Origin: Marinobacterium lutimaris
GTDB taxonomy: Bacteria > Pseudomonadota > Gammaproteobacteria > Pseudomonadales > Balneatricaceae
NCBI RefSeq assembly: GCF_900108065.1
Contig: NZ_FNVQ01000001.1
Location: 496,001 to 560,000 of the forward strand
DNA length: 64,000 nucleotides
Direction: 5' to 3'
Part shown: positions 6,016 through 23,344 of the stretch, one piece after another
How positions within the stretch are numbered: the first letter of the stretch is position 1
How the letters are laid out: each line of letters begins with the position of its first letter
Notes under the pieces: generated by a model
The model's database searches: none
What the model was told of the DNA's origin: nothing
What the model saw: the letters and a program-made list of their open reading frames with translations, nothing else
Position numbers and translations under genes: made by a program

Positions 6016-6567
6016 ATGGAACGACAGGTCAAAAAACGCATTTTAGGCGCCTGTGCGGTGTTGGTGGTCGGCGCTGCGTTGATTCCCCTACTGCTCGATG
6101 GTGCCGGTTATAAAGAGCGGCATCTCGAAAGCCGTATTCCGGCAGCGCCCGAGCCTGTCGCTCAGGTTGAGGTGGAGCAGGAGATGACGGTGCTTCCGGA
6201 TACCCGTGAGCCGGCTGCTCCTTCAGAGCCCGCTACCGTCAGTGTGCCTGTGGATGGTGTACAGCAGGCGGTGGAGCAGGCTAAGCCGGATATCGATCCG
6301 ATTGAAGATACGCCGCAGCTGGATCAGGAGGGGGTGCCTGTCGGCTGGACGCTGCAGTTGGCCAGCTTCCGTGATGAGGCTAATGCCAAGGCGCTGCGTG
6401 CAGAGCTTCTGGATGGCGGTCACAAGGTCTACATGCGCCATATGGCGGGACTGGTCAAAGTGTTCGTCGGGCCGGAGATGCAGCGGTCCAGGTTGGAAGC
6501 GCTGCAGGAAAAGCTGAAGCAGGAGTATGCGCTTGATGGCATTATCGTGCGTTTTACAACCCAGTGA
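6016..6567 (+). CDS. DedD-like SPOR-domain cell-division protein
   Basis: A short N-terminal cytoplasmic tail is followed by one membrane helix (ILGACAVLVVGAALIPLLL), a Pro/Glu-rich periplasmic linker, and a C-terminal SPOR domain at about residues 110-183 (WTLQLASFRDEANAKALRAELL). SPOR domains bind denuded septal peptidoglycan, so the protein probably acts at the division site. The topology and the position between folC and cvpA match DedD of other gammaproteobacteria. A good Shine-Dalgarno site (ggttaaagg) precedes the ATG, 4 bases after the folC stop. Confidence 0.88.
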   Translation: MERQVKKRILGACAVLVVGAALIPLLLDGAGYKERHLESRIPAAPEPVAQVEVEQEMTVLPDTREPAAPSEPATVSVPVDGVQQAVEQAKPDIDPIEDTPQLDQEGVPVGWTLQLASFRDEANAKALRAELLDGGHKVYMRHMAGLVKVFVGPEMQRSRLEALQEKLKQEYALDGIIVRFTTQ

Positions 6568-6575
6568 TCGAGCCA

Positions 6576-6604
6576 TTGGGTTCGCACTTTTGCTCTGCTA
6601 GAAT
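6576..6604 (+). promoter_or_regulatory. Sigma-70 promoter for cvpA-purF
   Basis: TTGGGT at 6576-6581 and TAGAAT at 6599-6604 with 17-base spacing and an extended -10 TG. It ends 27 bases before cvpA. Confidence 0.55.
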
Positions 6605-6631
6605 GCGCGCTGTTTCACAGGGTAGTATCGA

Positions 6632-7126
6632 ATGAACTGGGTTGACTGGGTGATCATCGCGATCATCGCGATTTCGAGTTTGATGAGCCTGCGCCGCGGT
6701 TTTGTCCGCGAGGCCGTCTCGCTGGCTTCTTGGGTGGTGGCATTTGTCGTTGCGCGTCTATTCGCTACCTCGCTGGCGGTTGTACTGCAGGACTATATCG
6801 ATACGCCGTCACTTCGCCTGCTGGCAGCCTTTGCTATTCTCTTTGTTATTACGCTGATTGTGGGTGCTCTGGTCGGAATGCTGATAGGAGCACTGGTGTC
6901 GGCGACAGGGCTCAGCGCTACGGACAGGGTACTGGGTATCGGCTTCGGGGCTGTGCGCGGAGCGCTGGTCATCGTGGTTTTAGTCGCGCTGCTGGGTATG
7001 ACCCCGGCGGTACAGGATTCATGGTGGCTGGAGTCCAGCCTGATTCCCCATTTTGTTTTGCTTGAGGACTGGACCCGTGCCGTTGCATCCGATGTTGGCC
7101 AGGTGATCTGGGATATCGGGCGTTAA
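6632..7126 (+). CDS. cvpA: CvpA family inner-membrane protein
   Basis: 164 residues with about four hydrophobic segments and the CvpA N-terminal signature (MNWVDWVIIAIIAISSLMSLRRG...VREAVSL). CvpA is an inner-membrane protein first found as needed for colicin V production and later linked to envelope stress tolerance. Its exact activity is unsettled. It precedes purF, as in Escherichia coli and Pseudomonas, and probably shares its promoter. Confidence 0.92.
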   Translation: MNWVDWVIIAIIAISSLMSLRRGFVREAVSLASWVVAFVVARLFATSLAVVLQDYIDTPSLRLLAAFAILFVITLIVGALVGMLIGALVSATGLSATDRVLGIGFGAVRGALVIVVLVALLGMTPAVQDSWWLESSLIPHFVLLEDWTRAVASDVGQVIWDIGR

Positions 7127-11518: not shown

Positions 11519-12593
11519 CCGGCTGCCGGCGCGCGCCCCAGTGGCCGTGCTCCGGCTCAAAGATCCCGGGGATCTCTCTGCCGCAGTGTTGGCAATGCCC
11601 GCTTTTATCCAGGTTCCAGGCTCCCAGCTCATACCAGTCCCTTTCGATCAAAAGCTCATTGCAGCCGGGGCACCAGGTCGAGCTTCCACGGCGGTCGTGA
11701 ACATTACCTGTGTATACGTATTCAAGGCCTGTATTCAGTGCGACCTGGCGTGCGCGAGTCAGTGTCGTTGGCGCAGTAGGTGGCTTGTCGAGCATTTTCC
11801 AGTCCGGGTGAAAGGCGCTGAAGTGCAGTGGGACATCGGTTCCCAGATGATCTGCAATCCAGTGTGAGAGTTCGGAAATTTCTGCGTCGGAGTCGTTTTC
11901 GCCGGGAATGAGCAGGGTGGTTATTTCCAGCCAGACATCGGTTTCGTGGCGAATATATTCAAGTGTTTCCAGTACAGCACCTAACTGGCCGCCGCAGATG
12001 CGCTGGTAAAAGCGCTCGGTAAATGCCTTGAGGTCGATGTTGGCGGCATCCATGTGGCGGTAGAATTCCTCGCGGGGGCCGGCGCAGACATAACCGGCGG
12101 ATACAGCGACGCTCTTAATGTCGAGGGCTCGTGCTGCAATGGCGCAGTCGATGGCGTATTCGTGAAAGATCACTGGATCGTTATAGGTAAATGCGATGCT
12201 GCGGCAGCCCAGTTTTTTGGCGGTGGCGGCGAGTAATTCCGGGGATGCGCTCTGGCTGAGCGTATCCATCTCCCGTGATTTGCTCATATCCCAGTTCTGG
12301 CAGAATTTGCACGCGAGGTTGCAGCCGGCAGTGCCGAAAGAGAGTACCGGGGTGCCAGGTAGAAAATGGTTGAGCGGCTTTTTCTCAATCGGATCGATGC
12401 AGAAGCCGCTGGAGCGTCCGTAGCTGTATAGACGGACCTGGCCATTTTCAACGCCACGCACGAAGCAAAGGCCTCTTTGTCCATCGCTGAGATGGCACTT
12501 TCTTGGGCACAGATCACACTGTACCTTGTCGTCGCTGATGCGATGCCACCATCGGGTGCTCACGCTATCTTTGAGATTCGTGACATTACTCAT
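11493..12593 (-). CDS. amrS: AmmeMemoRadiSam system radical SAM enzyme
   Basis: 366 residues. The radical SAM motif CxxxCxxC is Cys91, Cys95 and Cys98 ([16 protein letters not shown]). An extra N-terminal Cys group (CDLCPRKC...GLC) and a C-terminal ribbon-like CPGC...CQHC probably bind metal or a second cluster. This is the single-protein form related to pyruvate formate-lyase activases. It sits beside Memo-like and AMMECR1-like genes, which defines the AmmeMemoRadiSam association. No reaction is established for this trio that I can name. Start chosen at 12593, giving the full conserved N-terminus. Confidence 0.9.
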
Positions 12594-12611
12594 CCCCGGT
12601 CTCCGAACGTT

Positions 12612-12880
12612 AGGGAAGCTATGATTAAGTCTATAGCGTCTCAGCGTGGCATGAAGTGCCCGGATACTAGGCGAGCTTTGCCGTCAATGGCCGTAGCCCT
12701 TGGCAAAAAGCTCAACGCCGTAGATGGGTGCTTCATGCCGCGCCCTCCGGGGCTTGCAGGCTGGCGCACTCTCTGCGTTGGACTTTTTTGCCGTAGCGCC
12801 ACTACGCCTGCAAAAGCCCGCCTTGATAGTGAGCCAGCCTGTAAGCCTGAGATGCCATGAACTTGTTCATAGCTTCCTTA
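12612..12880. repeat. 269-bp structured inverted-repeat element between amrS and amrB
   Basis: The 394-bp gap between amrS and amrB is mostly one element bounded by 34-bp imperfect inverted repeats (12612-12645 and 12847-12880, 27 of 34 matched, core ggaagctatga). Most mismatches would be G-U pairs in RNA. Inside are nested arms: ggcatgaag 12649-12657 with 12731-12739; gagctttgcc near 12673 with ggcaaaaagctc near 12702; cttgcaggctggc 12753-12765 with 12833-12845. No coding sequence is convincing. It may be a MITE-like or REP-type repeat, or a transcribed structured RNA. Confidence 0.7.
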
Positions 12881-12987
12881 GGTTGGTAGCTATAATTTTA
12901 GTTGATCCCTGCGCGGGCTAAGTTGTCGGGTTTTAGGCTTGTGGTTTAAGACACGTGAATGGGATGAATAAAATAACGGTGAATGAG

Positions 12988-13788
12988 ATGAATCATGTAC
13001 GTCCGGCCGCGGTGGCGGGTCTGTTTTACCCCGGACAGCCTGAGATCTTGCGTTCCCGGGTTACTCGCCTGCTCGATGAGCAACACCAGGAGCAGCACAG
13101 GCGTCTAATCCCTAGTGCGCTTGTTGTACCGCACGCTGGCTACGACTATTCCGGTGGGGTGGCGGCAAGTGGTTACAGCCTGTTGGCTAGCGATCCCGAT
13201 CGGGCGCGAAGGTGGCGGCGGATTTTGCTGCTGGGGCCAAATCATCGAGTCCCACTGCGCGGTATTGCGGCGCCAAAGGCGGATCTCTTTGCGACTCCCT
13301 TGGGGTCAATGGCGGTAGATCAGACGGGGCTCGCCGAGTTGCAGCAGCGTTTCGATGTCCAGGTGCGAGAAGATGTGCATGCACTTGAGCATTGTCTGGA
13401 GGTGCAACTGCCGTTTCTGCATGAGCTACTGCCATCGGCTAAGTTACTTCCGCTTGTGGTCGGGCAGGAGCGGCCGGAGCCGGTGGCGGATCTGATTGAA
13501 TGGGCCTGGGATCAAAAAGACATACTGGTTGTTATCAGTACGGATTTAAGTCACTACCACAGCTACGATGAAGCGTGTCGGATCGATGCTGACACTGAGC
13601 ACGCCATTCTGGCGCTGCGTTCAGATATAGTCCCTGAGCAGGCCTGTGGTGCCCACGCGTTGAATGGGCTGCTGCTGGCGGCGCATCGGCGCTGCCTGTC
13701 GGCGGCGCGCTTGGCGTTATGCAACTCCGGCGATACGGCGGCCCCTCGCGATCAGGTTGTGGGGTACGGCAGCTATGTCATTTTCTAA
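12988..13788 (+). CDS. amrB: AmmeMemoRadiSam system protein B (Memo-like)
   Basis: Memo family, related to class III extradiol dioxygenases. Conserved pieces are VRPAAVAGLFYPG, VPHAGYDYSGG, LLGPNHRVP and the His-rich STDLSHYHSYDEA, which supply probable metal-binding histidines. I chose the ATG at 12988 (266 residues), which has ggtga 5 bases upstream and begins right before the conserved block. In-frame starts at 12955 (GTG) and 12964 (ATG) are alternatives. The 3' end overlaps the start of the AMMECR1-like gene by 14 bases, which suggests coupled translation. Confidence 0.9.
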   Translation: MNHVRPAAVAGLFYPGQPEILRSRVTRLLDEQHQEQHRRLIPSALVVPHAGYDYSGGVAASGYSLLASDPDRARRWRRILLLGPNHRVPLRGIAAPKADLFATPLGSMAVDQTGLAELQQRFDVQVREDVHALEHCLEVQLPFLHELLPSAKLLPLVVGQERPEPVADLIEWAWDQKDILVVISTDLSHYHSYDEACRIDADTEHAILALRSDIVPEQACGAHALNGLLLAAHRRCLSAARLALCNSGDTAAPRDQVVGYGSYVIF

Positions 13789-19080: not shown

Positions 19081-19254
19081 GACAAGGCCCTCATCTGTTG
19101 TCACCACACACAGACAGCTGAACACCCCGGCAGGGATGTCTATACTTCTGCAGTGGGTTATCGATTAGGTATCGATTAGTGTTTGGCGACGCGAATTTTA
19201 TAGGAAGGGGTTGCCAAAGTTAAGTTTGTCGACAATCTTGGGCGTTAGACTTTG

Positions 19255-19330
19255 GCCTATTAGCCAACGCGTCGCCGCGTTGATACGCATCAAGCTATGC
19301 GCCCCTCGGGGTTGCGCAGGCCTTTGATAG
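19255..19330. repeat. Intergenic palindromic repeat-like segment
   Basis: The gap between acnB and the next operon (19081-19378) holds small palindromes: ttgatacgcatcaa (19280-19293), and gcgcccctcggggttgcgc (19300-19318). The stretch resembles part of the 12.7 kb element (gcgccc-tc-gggg-ttgc-agg in both), so both may belong to one family of extragenic repeats. Confidence 0.4.
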
Positions 19331-19378: not shown

Positions 19379-19834
19379 GTGACCTTACCATTAACGGTGG
19401 AGTCATCCGGAGTGGATGCCTCGCGCCAGTACCAAATAGTTCGGCAGCTAGAGCTGTTCCGTATCCAGGAGGACCCCCATCTTATCTACAGGGGGCAGGA
19501 GCATCTGATCGTGCTGCGATACCTGCAGCGCAGGGTTGCCGCGCGGCCAATTCAGCTGCGTAATCATATTCGCCGCGTTTATCTGGCTATTCAAAGCCGG
19601 GAAGTGGCGCATCTGACCGGCGCTCTGGTTGATCTCATGCTGATCCTCAAAGGCAAGGGGCGTTACCTGGTTGAGCGCATGCTTGATCAATCGCGTCCGT
19701 TGCTTAAACCCGAGTATCACCAATTGATGAAAAAGGTTTGCGATACAGGGCAAACCGACAGACTCCGTGCGATTCCCGTGGGGGAATCGGTGCTTAGTAA
19801 CGGCGGGATGCCATCAGTGGCCAGGATGCAATGA
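19379..19834 (+). CDS. Unrecognised helical protein, first gene of the signalling operon
   Basis: 151 residues starting at GTG with ggag 7 bases upstream. I do not recognise the family. The sequence is mostly predicted helix, rich in Leu, Arg and Gln (QLELFRIQEDPHLIYRG, LRYLQRRVAARPIQLRNHI), with no membrane segment or signal peptide, so it should be cytoplasmic. Its stop overlaps the next start as ATGA, which indicates tight coupling to the pseudo-receiver protein. The role is unknown; an adaptor in the same system is a guess from context. Confidence 0.75.
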   Translation: MTLPLTVESSGVDASRQYQIVRQLELFRIQEDPHLIYRGQEHLIVLRYLQRRVAARPIQLRNHIRRVYLAIQSREVAHLTGALVDLMLILKGKGRYLVERMLDQSRPLLKPEYHQLMKKVCDTGQTDRLRAIPVGESVLSNGGMPSVARMQ

Positions 19835-20943
19835 GTAAAACCGGTTCTATTGGGCTAATCGGTTTTGATGATCGAGAAAGGAACCAGCTGGAAGTTTTTC
19901 TCAACAGTTCTGAAAATCCCGGTTTCGTTGAAAGCGATCCGGTCAAATCAGATGCGTTGTTGGTAAACCTCGCTTCGGCAGATGATAAGAAGCGGTTTCT
20001 GCGCTGGTATGCAGGGCGTCCGGATTGCCCGGTCGTCGCTGTGGTCGATGATCAAACCGTATCTGGCGGTATGCATACCCTGAAACGTCCCATGACGCTC
20101 GCGGGCCTTAAAAAGGTGTTGCGGGAGGTCATTCGGGAGATTCAATTCAGTTCGTCAGGCAGTGGCAGTTCTAACGCAGCGGAGGGTGAAGCCCCATCGT
20201 TGCTGAAAATGTCACCGGAAGAGCTCAAGGCGCTGATTGCGGCTTCTGGAGTGACTCCGAAGAAAACCAAACCTCGTACTCCCGAGCAGGATGTCGGCCG
20301 CGATGGTCGCAAAGAAAACCTGATTCTGCGCTGGAGTGACGCTGAGTGGCAGTCGCTGGTACGCAGTGCCTGCGGCACACTCCCTGATCTCGACCTGTCC
20401 AACCCGGCAGATCGCAGGCGCCTGTCGTTCTCGGCGGCGGCGCAGGGGCGTTTCCTGGAGCAGATAAACCAGGCCGTGCTGAAAGGACGGGAAAAGGGCA
20501 AGCCGGTTCAACTGACCGGAATACCGGGAGAGTTGCTCTACTTCCCTGAGCTTGACCTGTTCAGTTATGACCTGGACCCCGATCTGCTGATCCAGATGGC
20601 GAATAGCCGTTTCGGGCCGGGAGAGCTGGGTTGCGAAGAACTTGAGGAGCAGTCGCCCAATCGCCCAACCGCGCAGCGGGATGAGCTTCTTTGGGTGTTG
20701 GCGCTGTTTACCTCTGCGGGTCGTGTTCCCGATTATCTTGATCCGGCGGCTCCGTTAATTCTTAAAGAGATGCCGGACCTTTCACGATTTTTGTTAACGC
20801 CTCACGCAGAACGGATCGCGCGGGCTTGGTATGCAGAAAAGCAGAGTGCCACGGCAATCGCTTCTGCTCTCAAGATTCCGCAGCGATATGTGTTTTCATT
20901 CATGGTCGCAGCTGATGCGGCCGGTCTGTTCGAGCGTCAATAA
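19831..20943 (+). CDS. Pseudo-receiver protein with C-terminal helical region
   Basis: 370 residues. Residues 1-105 follow a response-regulator receiver fold: an acidic pair after strand 1 (GLIGFDDRERNQL), DALLVNLAS where the phospho-acceptor Asp is expected, PVVAVVDD, and the LKRPMTLAGLKKVL motif with the conserved Lys-Pro-like turn replaced by KRP. The acceptor site appears to be Asn, so phosphorylation is unlikely. A Ser-rich linker follows, then a region that ends in a possible helix-turn-helix (ATAIASALKIPQRYVFSFM). DNA binding is not shown. Confidence 0.7.
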   Translation: MSKTGSIGLIGFDDRERNQLEVFLNSSENPGFVESDPVKSDALLVNLASADDKKRFLRWYAGRPDCPVVAVVDDQTVSGGMHTLKRPMTLAGLKKVLREVIREIQFSSSGSGSSNAAEGEAPSLLKMSPEELKALIAASGVTPKKTKPRTPEQDVGRDGRKENLILRWSDAEWQSLVRSACGTLPDLDLSNPADRRRLSFSAAAQGRFLEQINQAVLKGREKGKPVQLTGIPGELLYFPELDLFSYDLDPDLLIQMANSRFGPGELGCEELEEQSPNRPTAQRDELLWVLALFTSAGRVPDYLDPAAPLILKEMPDLSRFLLTPHAERIARAWYAEKQSATAIASALKIPQRYVFSFMVAADAAGLFERQ

Positions 20944-20955
20944 GGAGATTCACGC

Positions 20956-21606
20956 ATGAGCGCTCAATCCAATAGGCCTACCGAAGCAGGCGATGAGACG
21001 CTTTATTTTCAGGTTCTGCCGGCCGGTGCGTATTACGCAACGTTCAGCGCCGAACCCGACGATATGAGGGCCTTGCTGCTTCAGTTACTCAGTTCAGACA
21101 CGGCAGTGCCCTATATACCGGCGTTGCTTGGCAAGCTGACAGGCCTGAACAGCGAGGAAGCGGACAAGCTTCTAACCACCATGAGTGGTCGTAATTTTCT
21201 GGAGCTTGTCAGCGATCCGCTCGAAATTGTCAGCGGCTCTTTGCAGGATATCCTGCCCGATCTGATCGGCCCTCTGGGGGAAGGCAAGGTCTTGCTGGCT
21301 GATGAACAGGGTTTTGCACTTGCTCAAAAAGGGTTTGAGCGGGAAGAAGAGGAAGCCGTTGCCGGTCTTGCAGCTGACGTCATCATGCTCTACGAGCGTC
21401 ATGAGTCACTGATTACAAACCAGCTTGGGCTGCTGGGCTGTTCCTGGGCGCTGGTAAACGCCGTGGGACAGAGTGATCTCGGGTTCTGGGTACTCACCAT
21501 TGGCCGAGAAAAATTTCTATTGATCATTGAGGGGATGCCGTATCTGAACCGGCAATCCTTTGTTGACCTAACATCAGTTCTGATCCGGCGCTACCTGGAT
21601 CACTAA
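20956..21606 (+). CDS. Protein with degenerate Roadblock/LC7-like C-terminal half
   Basis: 216 residues with a strong aaggag site before the ATG. The N-terminal half (LYFQVLPAGAYYATF, then a Leu-rich helical part) is unrecognised. From about residue 110 it resembles a Roadblock/LC7 domain (VLLADEQGFALAQKGF, a helix with VAGLAADVIMLYERHE, then strands FWVLTIGREKFLLII). The likeness is weak and judged by pattern only. It directly precedes a clear Roadblock protein and could form a heterodimer with it. Confidence 0.65.
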   Translation: MSAQSNRPTEAGDETLYFQVLPAGAYYATFSAEPDDMRALLLQLLSSDTAVPYIPALLGKLTGLNSEEADKLLTTMSGRNFLELVSDPLEIVSGSLQDILPDLIGPLGEGKVLLADEQGFALAQKGFEREEEEAVAGLAADVIMLYERHESLITNQLGLLGCSWALVNAVGQSDLGFWVLTIGREKFLLIIEGMPYLNRQSFVDLTSVLIRRYLDH

Positions 21607-21633
21607 GACCTGCAGTGGAATAAGGAGATTTTC

Positions 21634-21996
21634 ATGCGCGCGGAAGTATTGAGTTCAATCTTGCGTGACCTGAACGGCACTTCAACCGAAATCGAGGCCT
21701 GTGCCGTGATTTCGACTGACGGCCTTGTTATCGACTCGCTTTTGCCAGCGGGTATGGATGAAGACCGCGTTGGTGCCATGAGCGCTGCGATCCTCTCCCT
21801 TGGTGAGCGCACAGCCCGTGAGCTTGCCCGTGGCGATCTGGAGCAGGTTCTGGTCAAGGGGGCGGACGGTTACATCCTGATGACCCACGCAAACTCTGAA
21901 TCTGTGTTGACCGTTGTAGCCAAGCCGAATGCACGCCTTGGTCTTATCTTCCTGGACGTTAAACGGGCAGCTGAGGCGATCGGCAAGGTGCTCTAA
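21634..21996 (+). CDS. Roadblock/LC7 domain protein
   Basis: 120 residues, a single Roadblock/LC7 domain: EIEACAVISTDGLVIDSLLP, then AAILSLGERTARELARG, then VLVKGADGYILMTHA and SVLTVVAKPNARLGLIFLDV. Bacterial members such as MglB control small Ras-like GTPases, but no GTPase gene is near. aaggag precedes the ATG. It is the fourth gene of the operon, followed 72 bases later by the PAS gene. Confidence 0.88.
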   Translation: MRAEVLSSILRDLNGTSTEIEACAVISTDGLVIDSLLPAGMDEDRVGAMSAAILSLGERTARELARGDLEQVLVKGADGYILMTHANSESVLTVVAKPNARLGLIFLDVKRAAEAIGKVL

Positions 21997-22068
21997 GCGG
22001 CTGGAATCGGCATCGACCAGTCTGGTTGGTGCCGAATCTCAGTGTTTGGCTGTTCAAGGAGTGGCTCC

Positions 22069-22530
22069 ATGTCAGAAAAGGATACCGGGTCAGTCAGTGA
22101 AGTGCTGATCAAATATTTTGGCGGCGACGAACGGCTCGCCAAAATCGTCGATGAGGAAGTACCTTATCCCGACGGTAAGCTGATTGTCTCGCGCACCGAT
22201 CCCAAGGGGATCATTACCCACGTAAATCAGGCGTTTGTCGATATGTCGGCGTACACGCGCGAGGAACTGGTGGGTGCAAATCACAATATCCTCCGTCACC
22301 CTGATATGCCCGCTGTGGCGTTTAAGGGTTTGTGGGATACGGTGGAAAATGGCGAGAAGTGGCAGGGGTATGTGAAAAACCTGCGCAAAGACGGCAAGTA
22401 TTACTGGGTCAAGGCTACAGTAATTCCCAATATCCGTCAGGGCAAGCTGGTAGGTTACACCTCGGTGCGCCGCAAGCCTTCCCGTAGCAAGATTCGCGAA
22501 AGCGAGGCACTGTACGAGACGTTGCAGTAA
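22069..22530 (+). CDS. Aer-type PAS domain protein
   Basis: 153 residues, one PAS domain close to the sensory domain of the aerotaxis receptor Aer: GIITHVNQAFVDMSAYTREE, then HNILRHPDMPAVAFKGLW, then WQGYVKNLRKDGKYYWVKA. Aer-type PAS domains bind FAD and report redox or oxygen state. This protein lacks the membrane, HAMP and methyl-accepting parts, so it would be a free cytoplasmic sensor. I chose the ATG at 22069 with aaggag in front; a GTG at 22042 is in frame but has no such site. Confidence 0.9.
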   Translation: MSEKDTGSVSEVLIKYFGGDERLAKIVDEEVPYPDGKLIVSRTDPKGIITHVNQAFVDMSAYTREELVGANHNILRHPDMPAVAFKGLWDTVENGEKWQGYVKNLRKDGKYYWVKATVIPNIRQGKLVGYTSVRRKPSRSKIRESEALYETLQ

Positions 22531-22540
22531 GGAGCAGGGA

Positions 22541-23287
22541 ATGCCTTTTAATTTTACCGTTAGTCCGGACTTTGCGCCGGACCATATGTCTGGCTGGTTC
22601 TATTTCAATACCTGGTTGCAGAGAAATCTGGGTACGGATATCCATCTTGAGCTGTTCGACAGCTTCGATGCTCAGCGAGATGCGATAAAAGCGGGCCAGG
22701 TGGATCTGATCTACGCCAACCCCTATGACGCTTCCATGCTGGTGCGTGAGCTGGGCTTCAAGGCAGTGGCTCGGCCGGCGGGCAAAAAGGATGAGGCGGT
22801 TATCGTTGTCCCGGCTAATAGCCAGGCCGAGGCTGTCGAAGATCTCGAAGCGGGCGTGAGACTGGCGACCACCGATGACCCGGATGTGCATACCATCGGT
22901 ATGATCATGCTGGAACCGGCGGATCTGGATGCTTCCAATATCTCGCAGAAAGATTACGACACCTACATTCTTGTCGCCAAGGCGCTGTTGCGGGGCGAGG
23001 CCGATGTCGGCTTTTTCCTGAAGCAGGGTTTTGATGAGCTCTCTGACCTCATCAAGAAACAGATGCGGGTGTTGGTGAGCAGTCAGATCAGCGTGGTTCA
23101 TCATGCGCTGCTGGTTGGGCCGCAGATGCAGGACTGCATGGCGGAACTCAAGGCTCTGGTCACACAGATGCACAAGGATGAAAAAGGCATAGGTGTGCTC
23201 GAAAGCATGGGTATCAAGGAATTTGAGTCTATGTCTACAGAGCAGACGGAGTTTATGATCGATCTGATCGATACCCTCACGATTTAA
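22541..23287 (+). CDS. PhnD-like substrate-binding protein lacking a signal peptide
   Basis: 248 residues of the phosphate/phosphonate-type periplasmic binding fold (LELFDSFDAQRDAIKAGQVDLIYANPYDASML, then RPAGKKDEAVIVV, then ALLRGEADVGFF). There is no signal peptide or lipobox and the N-terminus is MPFNFTVSPDF, so it should stay in the cytoplasm. No ABC permease or ATPase follows. It is likely a ligand sensor of the operon rather than a transporter part. aaggag precedes the ATG 10 bases after the PAS stop. Confidence 0.85.
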   Translation: MPFNFTVSPDFAPDHMSGWFYFNTWLQRNLGTDIHLELFDSFDAQRDAIKAGQVDLIYANPYDASMLVRELGFKAVARPAGKKDEAVIVVPANSQAEAVEDLEAGVRLATTDDPDVHTIGMIMLEPADLDASNISQKDYDTYILVAKALLRGEADVGFFLKQGFDELSDLIKKQMRVLVSSQISVVHHALLVGPQMQDCMAELKALVTQMHKDEKGIGVLESMGIKEFESMSTEQTEFMIDLIDTLTI

Positions 23288-23309: not shown

Positions 23310-23344
23310 GGGCGGCAACTTTGCGTTATACTTGCCGCCCTTTA
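23310..23344 (+). terminator. Terminator after the Roadblock/PAS/PhnD operon
   Basis: Stem gggcggcaa / ttgccgccc around a 13-base loop, followed by ttta tt. It ends the six-gene operon before miaE. Confidence 0.65.

Follow-up and report, generated by a model that had tools for sequence, protein, structure and literature searches.

The window analyzed here is a 64,000-nucleotide stretch of the Marinobacterium lutimaris genome (RefSeq assembly GCF_900108065.1, contig NZ_FNVQ01000001.1, positions 496,001 to 560,000), and its subject is an operon of six forward open reading frames (window 19379–23287), labelled A to F in order, with G denoting a GTPase gene found in relatives. This operon probably derives from a Group 3 MglA cassette whose GTPase gene it no longer has; in it, two predicted sensors (the PAS protein E and the PhnD-like protein F) would act via a complex of Roadblock proteins (C and D) and a pseudo-receiver (B). 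Because the GTPase that defines the group is absent, the operon is treated as a variant of the Group 3 systems and not as a member. The sequence-only reading of this DNA had proposed a cytoplasmic complex for redox and ligand sensing, which is supported as a reading by the results given below.

The six genes occur together far beyond chance. A scan of named genomes with the F alignment gave at least 457 relatives, and the loci analyzed are the best 80 of these; the complete A–F set is present in 68 of the 80, gene-neighborhood conservation being the check that the sequence-only reading had proposed. Among the remaining 12 loci, seven start less than 300 bases from a contig end and five are split. 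E lies immediately upstream of F in 79 of the 80 loci, the exception (L081) having F at a contig end; L067 is an E–F pair on a 3-kb contig. The cassette recurs, with its gene order largely preserved, in further families belonging to the window's order, in Methylococcaceae and Halothiobacillaceae, and in two metagenome-assembled genomes (MAGs), one of Methylophaga and one of Burkholderiaceae. Where E–F is split from the rest, a D-type Roadblock gene is encoded elsewhere in the genome in all five cases. In Methylomicrobium sp. RS1, as in a Thiotrichaceae MAG, E–F is separated from an A–B–G–C–D cluster; D–E–F and A–B–C–D lie apart in Neptuniibacter sp. CAU 1671, the latter beside acnB- and miaE-like genes; and two Anaerolineae MAGs, whose assignments may reflect mis-binning, have E–F, a lone D, and a GTPase, all apart (B and C were not searched genome-wide in these). 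Genes beyond the cassette are mostly housekeeping-like, by eye, among the 17 loci listed, and acnB is a common neighbor within the window's own group.

A, B, C, and F were also sought across the order, in a set of 95 genomes. Six of these have B, six C, five A, and ten F (six of the ten F matches being strong, E ≤ 1.5e-61), and five genomes have all six genes side by side. A further genome (G055) has B–F, with C recognized by position and a weak Pfam match, and no A was found in it; another (G047) has C with A-like and D-like genes, and no match to B or F. That 89 of the 95 genomes lack B at E ≤ 0.001 is what would be expected of chance neighbors, or of a lineage-specific island whose genes do not work as a unit. 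Such an explanation is nevertheless scarcely credible: the gene set recurs in several other families, all six genes are under purifying selection, and the parts co-occur in trans at split loci. It is already contradicted by the 68 complete loci together with the co-occurrence at split loci.

The link to MglA systems comes from relatives. A seventh cassette gene, encoding an MglA-like small GTPase, is present in 24 of the 68 complete loci, and adjoins B, ahead of C, in 22 of these 24. The carriers are methane-oxidizing and other gammaproteobacteria, including Methylotuvimicrobium buryatense 5G, and the GTPase-bearing cassettes lie outside the Marinobacterium–Nitrincola–Amphritea–Neptuniibacter (MNAN) group. 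Across 20 aligned GTPase sequences, the GTPGQ motif, the G2 Thr pair, and DAR are invariant (20/20), and G4 reads TQMD or TRMD in most, the usual Lys being missing in 19 of the 20 and present in one (L069). The marks given for Group 2 and 3 MglA proteins are GTPGQ, the G2 Thr, a deviating G4, and DAR in G5, and a Group 3 system is described as an uncharacterized receiver-like/winged-helix protein, MglA, and one or two MglB proteins (PMC4316618). Judged by these sequence features, B, G, C, and D of the relatives correspond to the components of a Group 3 MglA system.

In the MNAN group, the operon GTPase is absent from all 43 complete loci. Where the gap between B and C was measured in this group, in 43 loci, it never exceeds 109 bp (L085 included, L080 set aside, and L046, with a broken B, not measured); in the window it is 12 bp. 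The claim of the sequence-only reading that no GTPase is present is true of the window operon, but not of relatives in other families, which carry an MglA-type GTPase within the operon. We take the MNAN group to be the Nitrincolaceae of GTDB; its NCBI label on the tree is Oceanospirillaceae. A combined tree of D, E, and F (78 rows) contains one GTPase-less clade of 46 rows, with a Shimodaira–Hasegawa-like approximate likelihood-ratio test (SH-aLRT) value of 99; two further GTPase-less loci (L080 and L097), each truncated by a contig end, fall outside this clade. We infer that the gene was lost once in the MNAN lineage, rather than gained elsewhere, since Group 3 systems have the GTPase at their core and it occurs across the remaining branches.

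In the ancestral arrangement, the redox sensor E, with a flavin adenine dinucleotide (FAD)-binding PAS domain, and the metabolite sensor F would feed the Roadblock protein D, C, or both; the Roadblock proteins would regulate the MglA-type GTPase; and the GTPase would act on B, a receiver-like and helix-turn-helix (HTH)-like effector. The operon would have lost its GTPase a single time, in the MNAN lineage, where the sensors and the Roadblock pair were kept under strong selection. As the operon GTPase has gone and matching sites in B have been lost, a direct coupling between Roadblock proteins and B is suggested, and the Roadblock pair now probably links the E and F sensors to B directly. The protein contacts, the order of signal flow, and the role of B as output are as proposed here from the comparisons, and the output itself might be transcription, or control of polarity or type IV pili. 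It is quite possible, if somewhat short of probable, that this lineage runs MglB/Roadblock signaling without an MglA GTPase, with E and F acting through the Roadblock pair directly on the pseudo-receiver following one loss that freed just a few sites in B and in the Roadblock proteins.

Traces of the loss were sought as relaxed columns, defined as at least 95% conserved in 30 GTPase-bearing rows while the commonest residue reaches no more than 60% in 45 GTPase-less rows. B has five such columns out of 309, C one out of 208, and D one out of 120, and E (0/153) and F (0/248) have none. The relaxed columns lie at B 46, 48, 86, 308, and 314, C 77, and D 34, residues at these positions including Asp48, Lys86, Pro308, and Trp314 in B and Gln77 in C, and are predicted to mark GTPase-dependent surfaces. 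The phospho-acceptor position of B is Asp in 26 of 27 sequences with the GTPase (3 rows gapped) vs. 15 of 43 without it (2 rows gapped), and Lys86 is present in 27 of 27 vs. 25 of 43. Position 314 is Trp in the GTPase rows, with no changes, and requires 21 changes among the GTPase-less rows. These patterns suggest that the loss of the GTPase freed sites in B and C that had been required for it. All six genes are under purifying selection and are still in use: over nine GTPase-less pairs (one of the nine not computable for F), the maximum ratios of nonsynonymous to synonymous substitution (dN/dS) were 0.133 for A, 0.175 for B, 0.050 for C, 0.018 for D, 0.077 for E, and 0.042 for F.

Several points weigh against a GTPase-less Group 3 derivative. 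Columns with the reverse pattern (conserved in GTPase-less rows and relaxed in GTPase rows) are more numerous than the relaxed columns, at 10 in B, 15 in C, 8 in D, 3 in E, and 8 in F. We attribute this excess to the GTPase-less rows being one close family, and for the same reason the telling signal is added variability within that family; even so, the relaxed columns trace to a single loss, and so represent one event and not replicated evidence. The D+E+F tree is a quick tree without bootstrap, its root was not inferred, and it carries the warning that two long GTPase-bearing branches (L013 and L015) meet. The winged helix of B has no confirming fold match. The Roadblock identity of C is weak (Robl_LC7 E 0.049), with no significant alignment to D; because the profile–profile comparison of C with D was not significant, the assignment of C is based on the weak Pfam match and a match to CvnB5 (3leq; E 9e-4) covering only part of the domain. 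Finally, 17 of the 27 F-bearing genomes of the family, that of the window included, have an MglA-like GTPase at another locus, and in those 17 a GTPase may act in trans.

This last observation raises the alternative that an MglA-like GTPase at another locus has replaced the lost operon gene, often in a frame of 320–360 amino acids (aa) comprising the GTPase and a C-terminal extension. In a survey of 60 genomes of the family, with F orthologues called at E < 1e-100, F was present in 27 and a GTPase match in 19; both occur in 17, F only in 10, the GTPase only in two, and neither in 31 (Fisher p 2.7e-6, uncorrected for kinship). A GTPase acting in trans would also fit the retention of Asp29–Gly30 of D in 75 of 75 rows, and a Thiotrichaceae contig (L094) on which E–F lies beside such a GTPase, in a genome that also has a complete A–B–G–C–D. 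The window's own genome carries a GTPase of this kind (G000:C20; 335 aa, with a C-terminal extension; L102 7332–8339, minus strand). However, the 10 F-only genomes, from five genera, gave only fragments with a wider profile built from 14 GTPases (best E 0.0475, covering at most 46 of 175 positions), and no MglA-type GTPase was found in the M. sediminicola genome. Several of the distant GTPase loci have their own small partner genes: beside the GTPase of the window's genome lie two without a Pfam match (L102 7015–7347, minus strand, and 6186–6788, plus strand), and one small gene there, which has no Pfam match, is Roadblock-like by eye. Moreover, the sites lost in B and C are conserved when the operon carries its own GTPase. 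Given the 10 genomes with F and no GTPase match, a trans-acting GTPase is possible in some species, that of the window included, and not general, and as an account of the operon we regard it as rather unlikely.

Loci similar to this distant GTPase locus occur in relatives (L113–L115), two of them beside a sensor-like gene, that of L115 having HAMP and sensor-domain Pfam matches. At other Group 3-like loci, a GTPase is next to a B-like gene (L118 5511–7617, L117 5091–6611, and L103 5883–8410), the latter recognized by profile match in L117 and L118 and by size and place only in L103, which also has a D-like gene; no E or F was found within the stretches examined around these three. As a pointer to type IV pili, PilT is uninformative, being above the cut-off in 53 of the 60 family genomes and in all 27 with F.

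Protein E appears to be an Aer-type redox sensor with a conserved flavin pocket. Its profile matches the PAS structure of Escherichia coli Aer (8dik) at E 1.3e-36, and it consists of the PAS domain only (153–162 aa), without HAMP or a methyl-accepting signaling domain. In Aer, the FAD-contact residues include His53, Arg57, Met69, Trp70, Asn85, and Arg115, and S28G is a stabilizing change (PMC9668731). The equivalents of His53, Arg57, Trp70, Asn85, and Arg115 are kept in E in 74, 75, 75, 74, and 74 of 75 rows, respectively; the position of Met69 is Leu in 74 of 75, and that of S28G is natively Gly in 75 of 75. This agrees with the earlier description of a redox-type PAS domain without a chemoreceptor body. 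Closeness to Aer invites the alternative of an accessory module for aerotaxis or chemosensing, E signaling to the chemotaxis machinery, and one locus (L015) has a chemoreceptor-like gene upstream of B, named by eye without a family search. That role is improbable: none of the six genes encodes a kinase or chemoreceptor body, the flanks among the listed loci are largely housekeeping-like, and where E–F has split off, the same genome also encodes the Roadblock protein D. For E, the matches to kinase families are confined to the PAS portion.

Protein F is of the PhnD-like family PF12974, and because the family match begins at residue 5, there is no room for a signal peptide, in agreement with the sequence-only reading. 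Its C-terminal helix is EFMIDLIDTL, whose EFMIDL and TL portions do not vary across the six sequences compared (6/6). ArrX and PtxB are the solved relatives found by profile, so that F could be a transport protein that has shed its signal peptide, and the operon a phosphonate or oxyanion uptake operon with regulators. This we consider very improbable, as no permease or ATPase gene is found among the six, E stands directly before F in nearly every locus, and F is under strong selection (dN/dS ≤ 0.042) while starting without a signal peptide. The earlier statement that kinases and transporters are missing also stands: no kinase or GTPase match covers any of the six proteins, and no permease or ATPase gene lies among them.

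Two kinds of loci bear on the reach of these sensors. In an Anaerolineae MAG (L068 4600–10479), E–F follows genes that by eye resemble those for STAS, RsbW-type kinase, and response-regulator proteins, which suggests another output for the E–F pair. In three loci, a second, diverged PhnD-like protein, possibly a second ligand sensor, is encoded between C and D (L062 7664–8419, L064 2068–2787, and L084 8336–9088).

Protein A has no Pfam or NCBIfam match and no confident Foldseek fold match; it is longer in relatives that carry the operon GTPase, and tetratricopeptide repeat (TPR) matches to A-type proteins fall below the cut-off in L013 and L014. Protein B likewise has no Pfam or NCBIfam match, and its Foldseek matches are confined to the N-terminal half of the model, which resembles receiver domains at a target-normalized TM-score (TMt) of about 0.6, none at E ≤ 0.001. 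Its C terminus is helical and ends in a stretch that is HTH-like by eye, for which there is no fold match. Asn46 occupies the position of the receiver phospho-acceptor Asp, as expected from the earlier description of a receiver-like protein lacking its Asp. By eye, no acidic pair like that of true receivers could be made out even in B proteins from GTPase-bearing cassettes, and classical phosphorylation of B-type proteins is therefore doubtful throughout. Of the Roadblock pair that had been proposed, D is clear, matching solved Roadblock and MglB structures and also CvnB5 by profile, and C is the weak partner, with Asp116 and Gly119 in place of an adjacent Asp–Gly pair.

Comparison with described systems places the operon closest to Group 3 MglA systems, with which it shares a protein with a receiver-like N terminus (B, whose C terminus would correspond to the winged helix), two coupled MglB proteins (D and, more weakly, C), and a gammaproteobacterial host (PMC4316618). 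It differs in lacking the GTPGQ/DAR GTPase that is present in relatives and in having the additional A, Aer-PAS, and PhnD-like genes. The terms "PAS" and "phosphonate" do not occur in the main text of PMC4316618 (its supplementary tables were outside the search), and no description of the E–F pair, A, or the GTPase loss was found in the open-licence literature searched. The view that no described system has this gene set therefore holds for A, the Aer-PAS and PhnD-like proteins, and the GTPase loss, but not for B, the GTPase, and two MglB proteins, which correspond to Group 3 (PMC4316618).

Published parallels exist for pieces of the proposed mechanism, by analogy. Conservons and related actinobacterial G protein systems also combine an MglB-type Roadblock protein with stand-alone cytosolic sensors as proposed inputs, Streptomyces CvnF8 being such a protein that modulates an MglA-type system (PMC13343842). 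The window operon differs from conservons in having no match to a histidine kinase, the CvnD GTPase, or DUF742 among its six proteins, and its sensors are PAS and PhnD-like whereas CvnE and CvnF are GAF or P450 proteins (PMC13343842). HGbRL of Methylacidiphilum is likewise a cofactor-bearing sensor proposed to act via a Roadblock domain, here a heme globin fused to Roadblock, with no PAS or PhnD protein in the consulted part of that report (PMC4476040). Bdellovibrio RomR, with a truncated receiver, is reported to bind a PAS-bearing kinase remnant in two-hybrid tests (PMC6428892). The orphan Roadblock protein of Snodgrassella, assigned to group 3, is similarly an MglB-type protein encoded away from the GTPase, but Snodgrassella retains mglA, and the consulted part of that report describes no PAS/PhnD pair; a mutant in the orphan mglB has an altered colony edge on soft agar, the sole functional hint for Group 3 that was found (PMC11112851). 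E shares with Aer the five FAD-PAS residue equivalents listed above (PMC9668731), and differs in being a PAS domain alone, without HAMP, membrane helices, or a chemoreceptor signaling domain. F belongs to the same domain family as PhnD, PtxB, and ArrX, and is set apart by the missing signal peptide, the C-terminal EFMIDL..TL helix, and the lack of transporter genes in the operon.

Roadblock proteins are familiar chiefly for partnering and regulating small GTPases, and the GTPase-less lineage would be a natural test of whether they can signal alone. The seven-gene form, for its part, offers a candidate input for Group 3 MglA systems, which have been little studied, in the shape of a flavin PAS protein and a cytoplasmic PhnD-like sensor. 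Carriers suited to testing are Methylotuvimicrobium buryatense 5G, whose cassette includes the GTPase, and Marinobacterium species, whose operon lacks it.

Table 1. Features of the operon in the window, in order of position.
Feature	Position	Strand	Basis
Putative −10 element, TATAA	19336–19340	+	Invariant in 6 aligned Marinobacterium upstream regions
A: all-helical protein, 151 aa (GTG start)	19379–19834	+	AlphaFold model, helices only, predicted local distance difference test (pLDDT) 84.5
B: predicted pseudo-receiver, low-confidence linker, C-terminal domain	19831–20943	+	AlphaFold model, pLDDT 86.5
C: MglB-like, N-terminal extension and diverged Roadblock domain	20956–21606	+	Robl_LC7, E 0.049
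D: Roadblock/LC7, MglB-type, Asp–Gly pair	21634–21996	+	Robl_LC7, E 1.3e-17
E: stand-alone Aer-type PAS, predicted FAD-binding	22069–22530	+	PAS, E 3.8e-15; E. coli Aer PAS
F: cytoplasmic PhnD-like binding protein	22541–23287	+	PF12974, E 5.4e-41
Intrinsic-terminator-like hairpin, stem GGGCGGCAA...TTGCCGCCC then TTTATT	23310–23340	+	−18.5 kcal/mol

The layout of the locus largely follows the sequence-only reading, which had described six forward genes, the first two overlapping at ATGA; the reading frames are borne out, and the overlap is at 19831–19834. For E, the ATG at 22069 (153 aa, with AAGGAG upstream) is most likely the start, and is favored over the GTG at 22042 that opens the longer frame (22042–22530). 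An AAGGAG site had been claimed before each later gene; it precedes C, D, E, and F, but not B, and is also absent before A. The proposed terminator at 23310 coincides with a hairpin with a T-rich tail (z −2.35; 4 of 200 shuffles equally good), which the terminator scan did not list because its loop exceeds the permitted 8. Of the promoter proposed near 19312, the part that stands is the invariant TATAA element; the −35 at 19312 is unconserved among the six Marinobacterium sequences, and a consensus promoter scan gave no plus-strand site near 19312. The operon is flanked on one side by a divergent gene, which we take to be acnB-like, and on the other by miaE.

Two atypical loci were noted among the relatives. 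A reduced locus (L016 5417–8169) encodes C, proteins resembling A and D, and a 325-aa protein that matches no Pfam family, with no profile match to B, the GTPase, E, or F in that interval. The chemoreceptor-like gene of L015 lies at 11633–13129 on the minus strand, and A was not found in the cassette of that locus.

A perfect 10-bp palindrome, TTGTCGACAA, lies at window 19226–19235 in the intergenic region between acnB and the operon. It was rejected as an operator of the operon, being missing from many operon-bearing loci, such as those of Amphritea, and going with acnB in six loci. In these six (L041, L050, L052, L053, L056, and L066), acnB does not diverge from the operon (lying elsewhere or turned round), and TTGTCGACAA is found 440–730 bp upstream of acnB; the palindrome is possibly an acnB operator.

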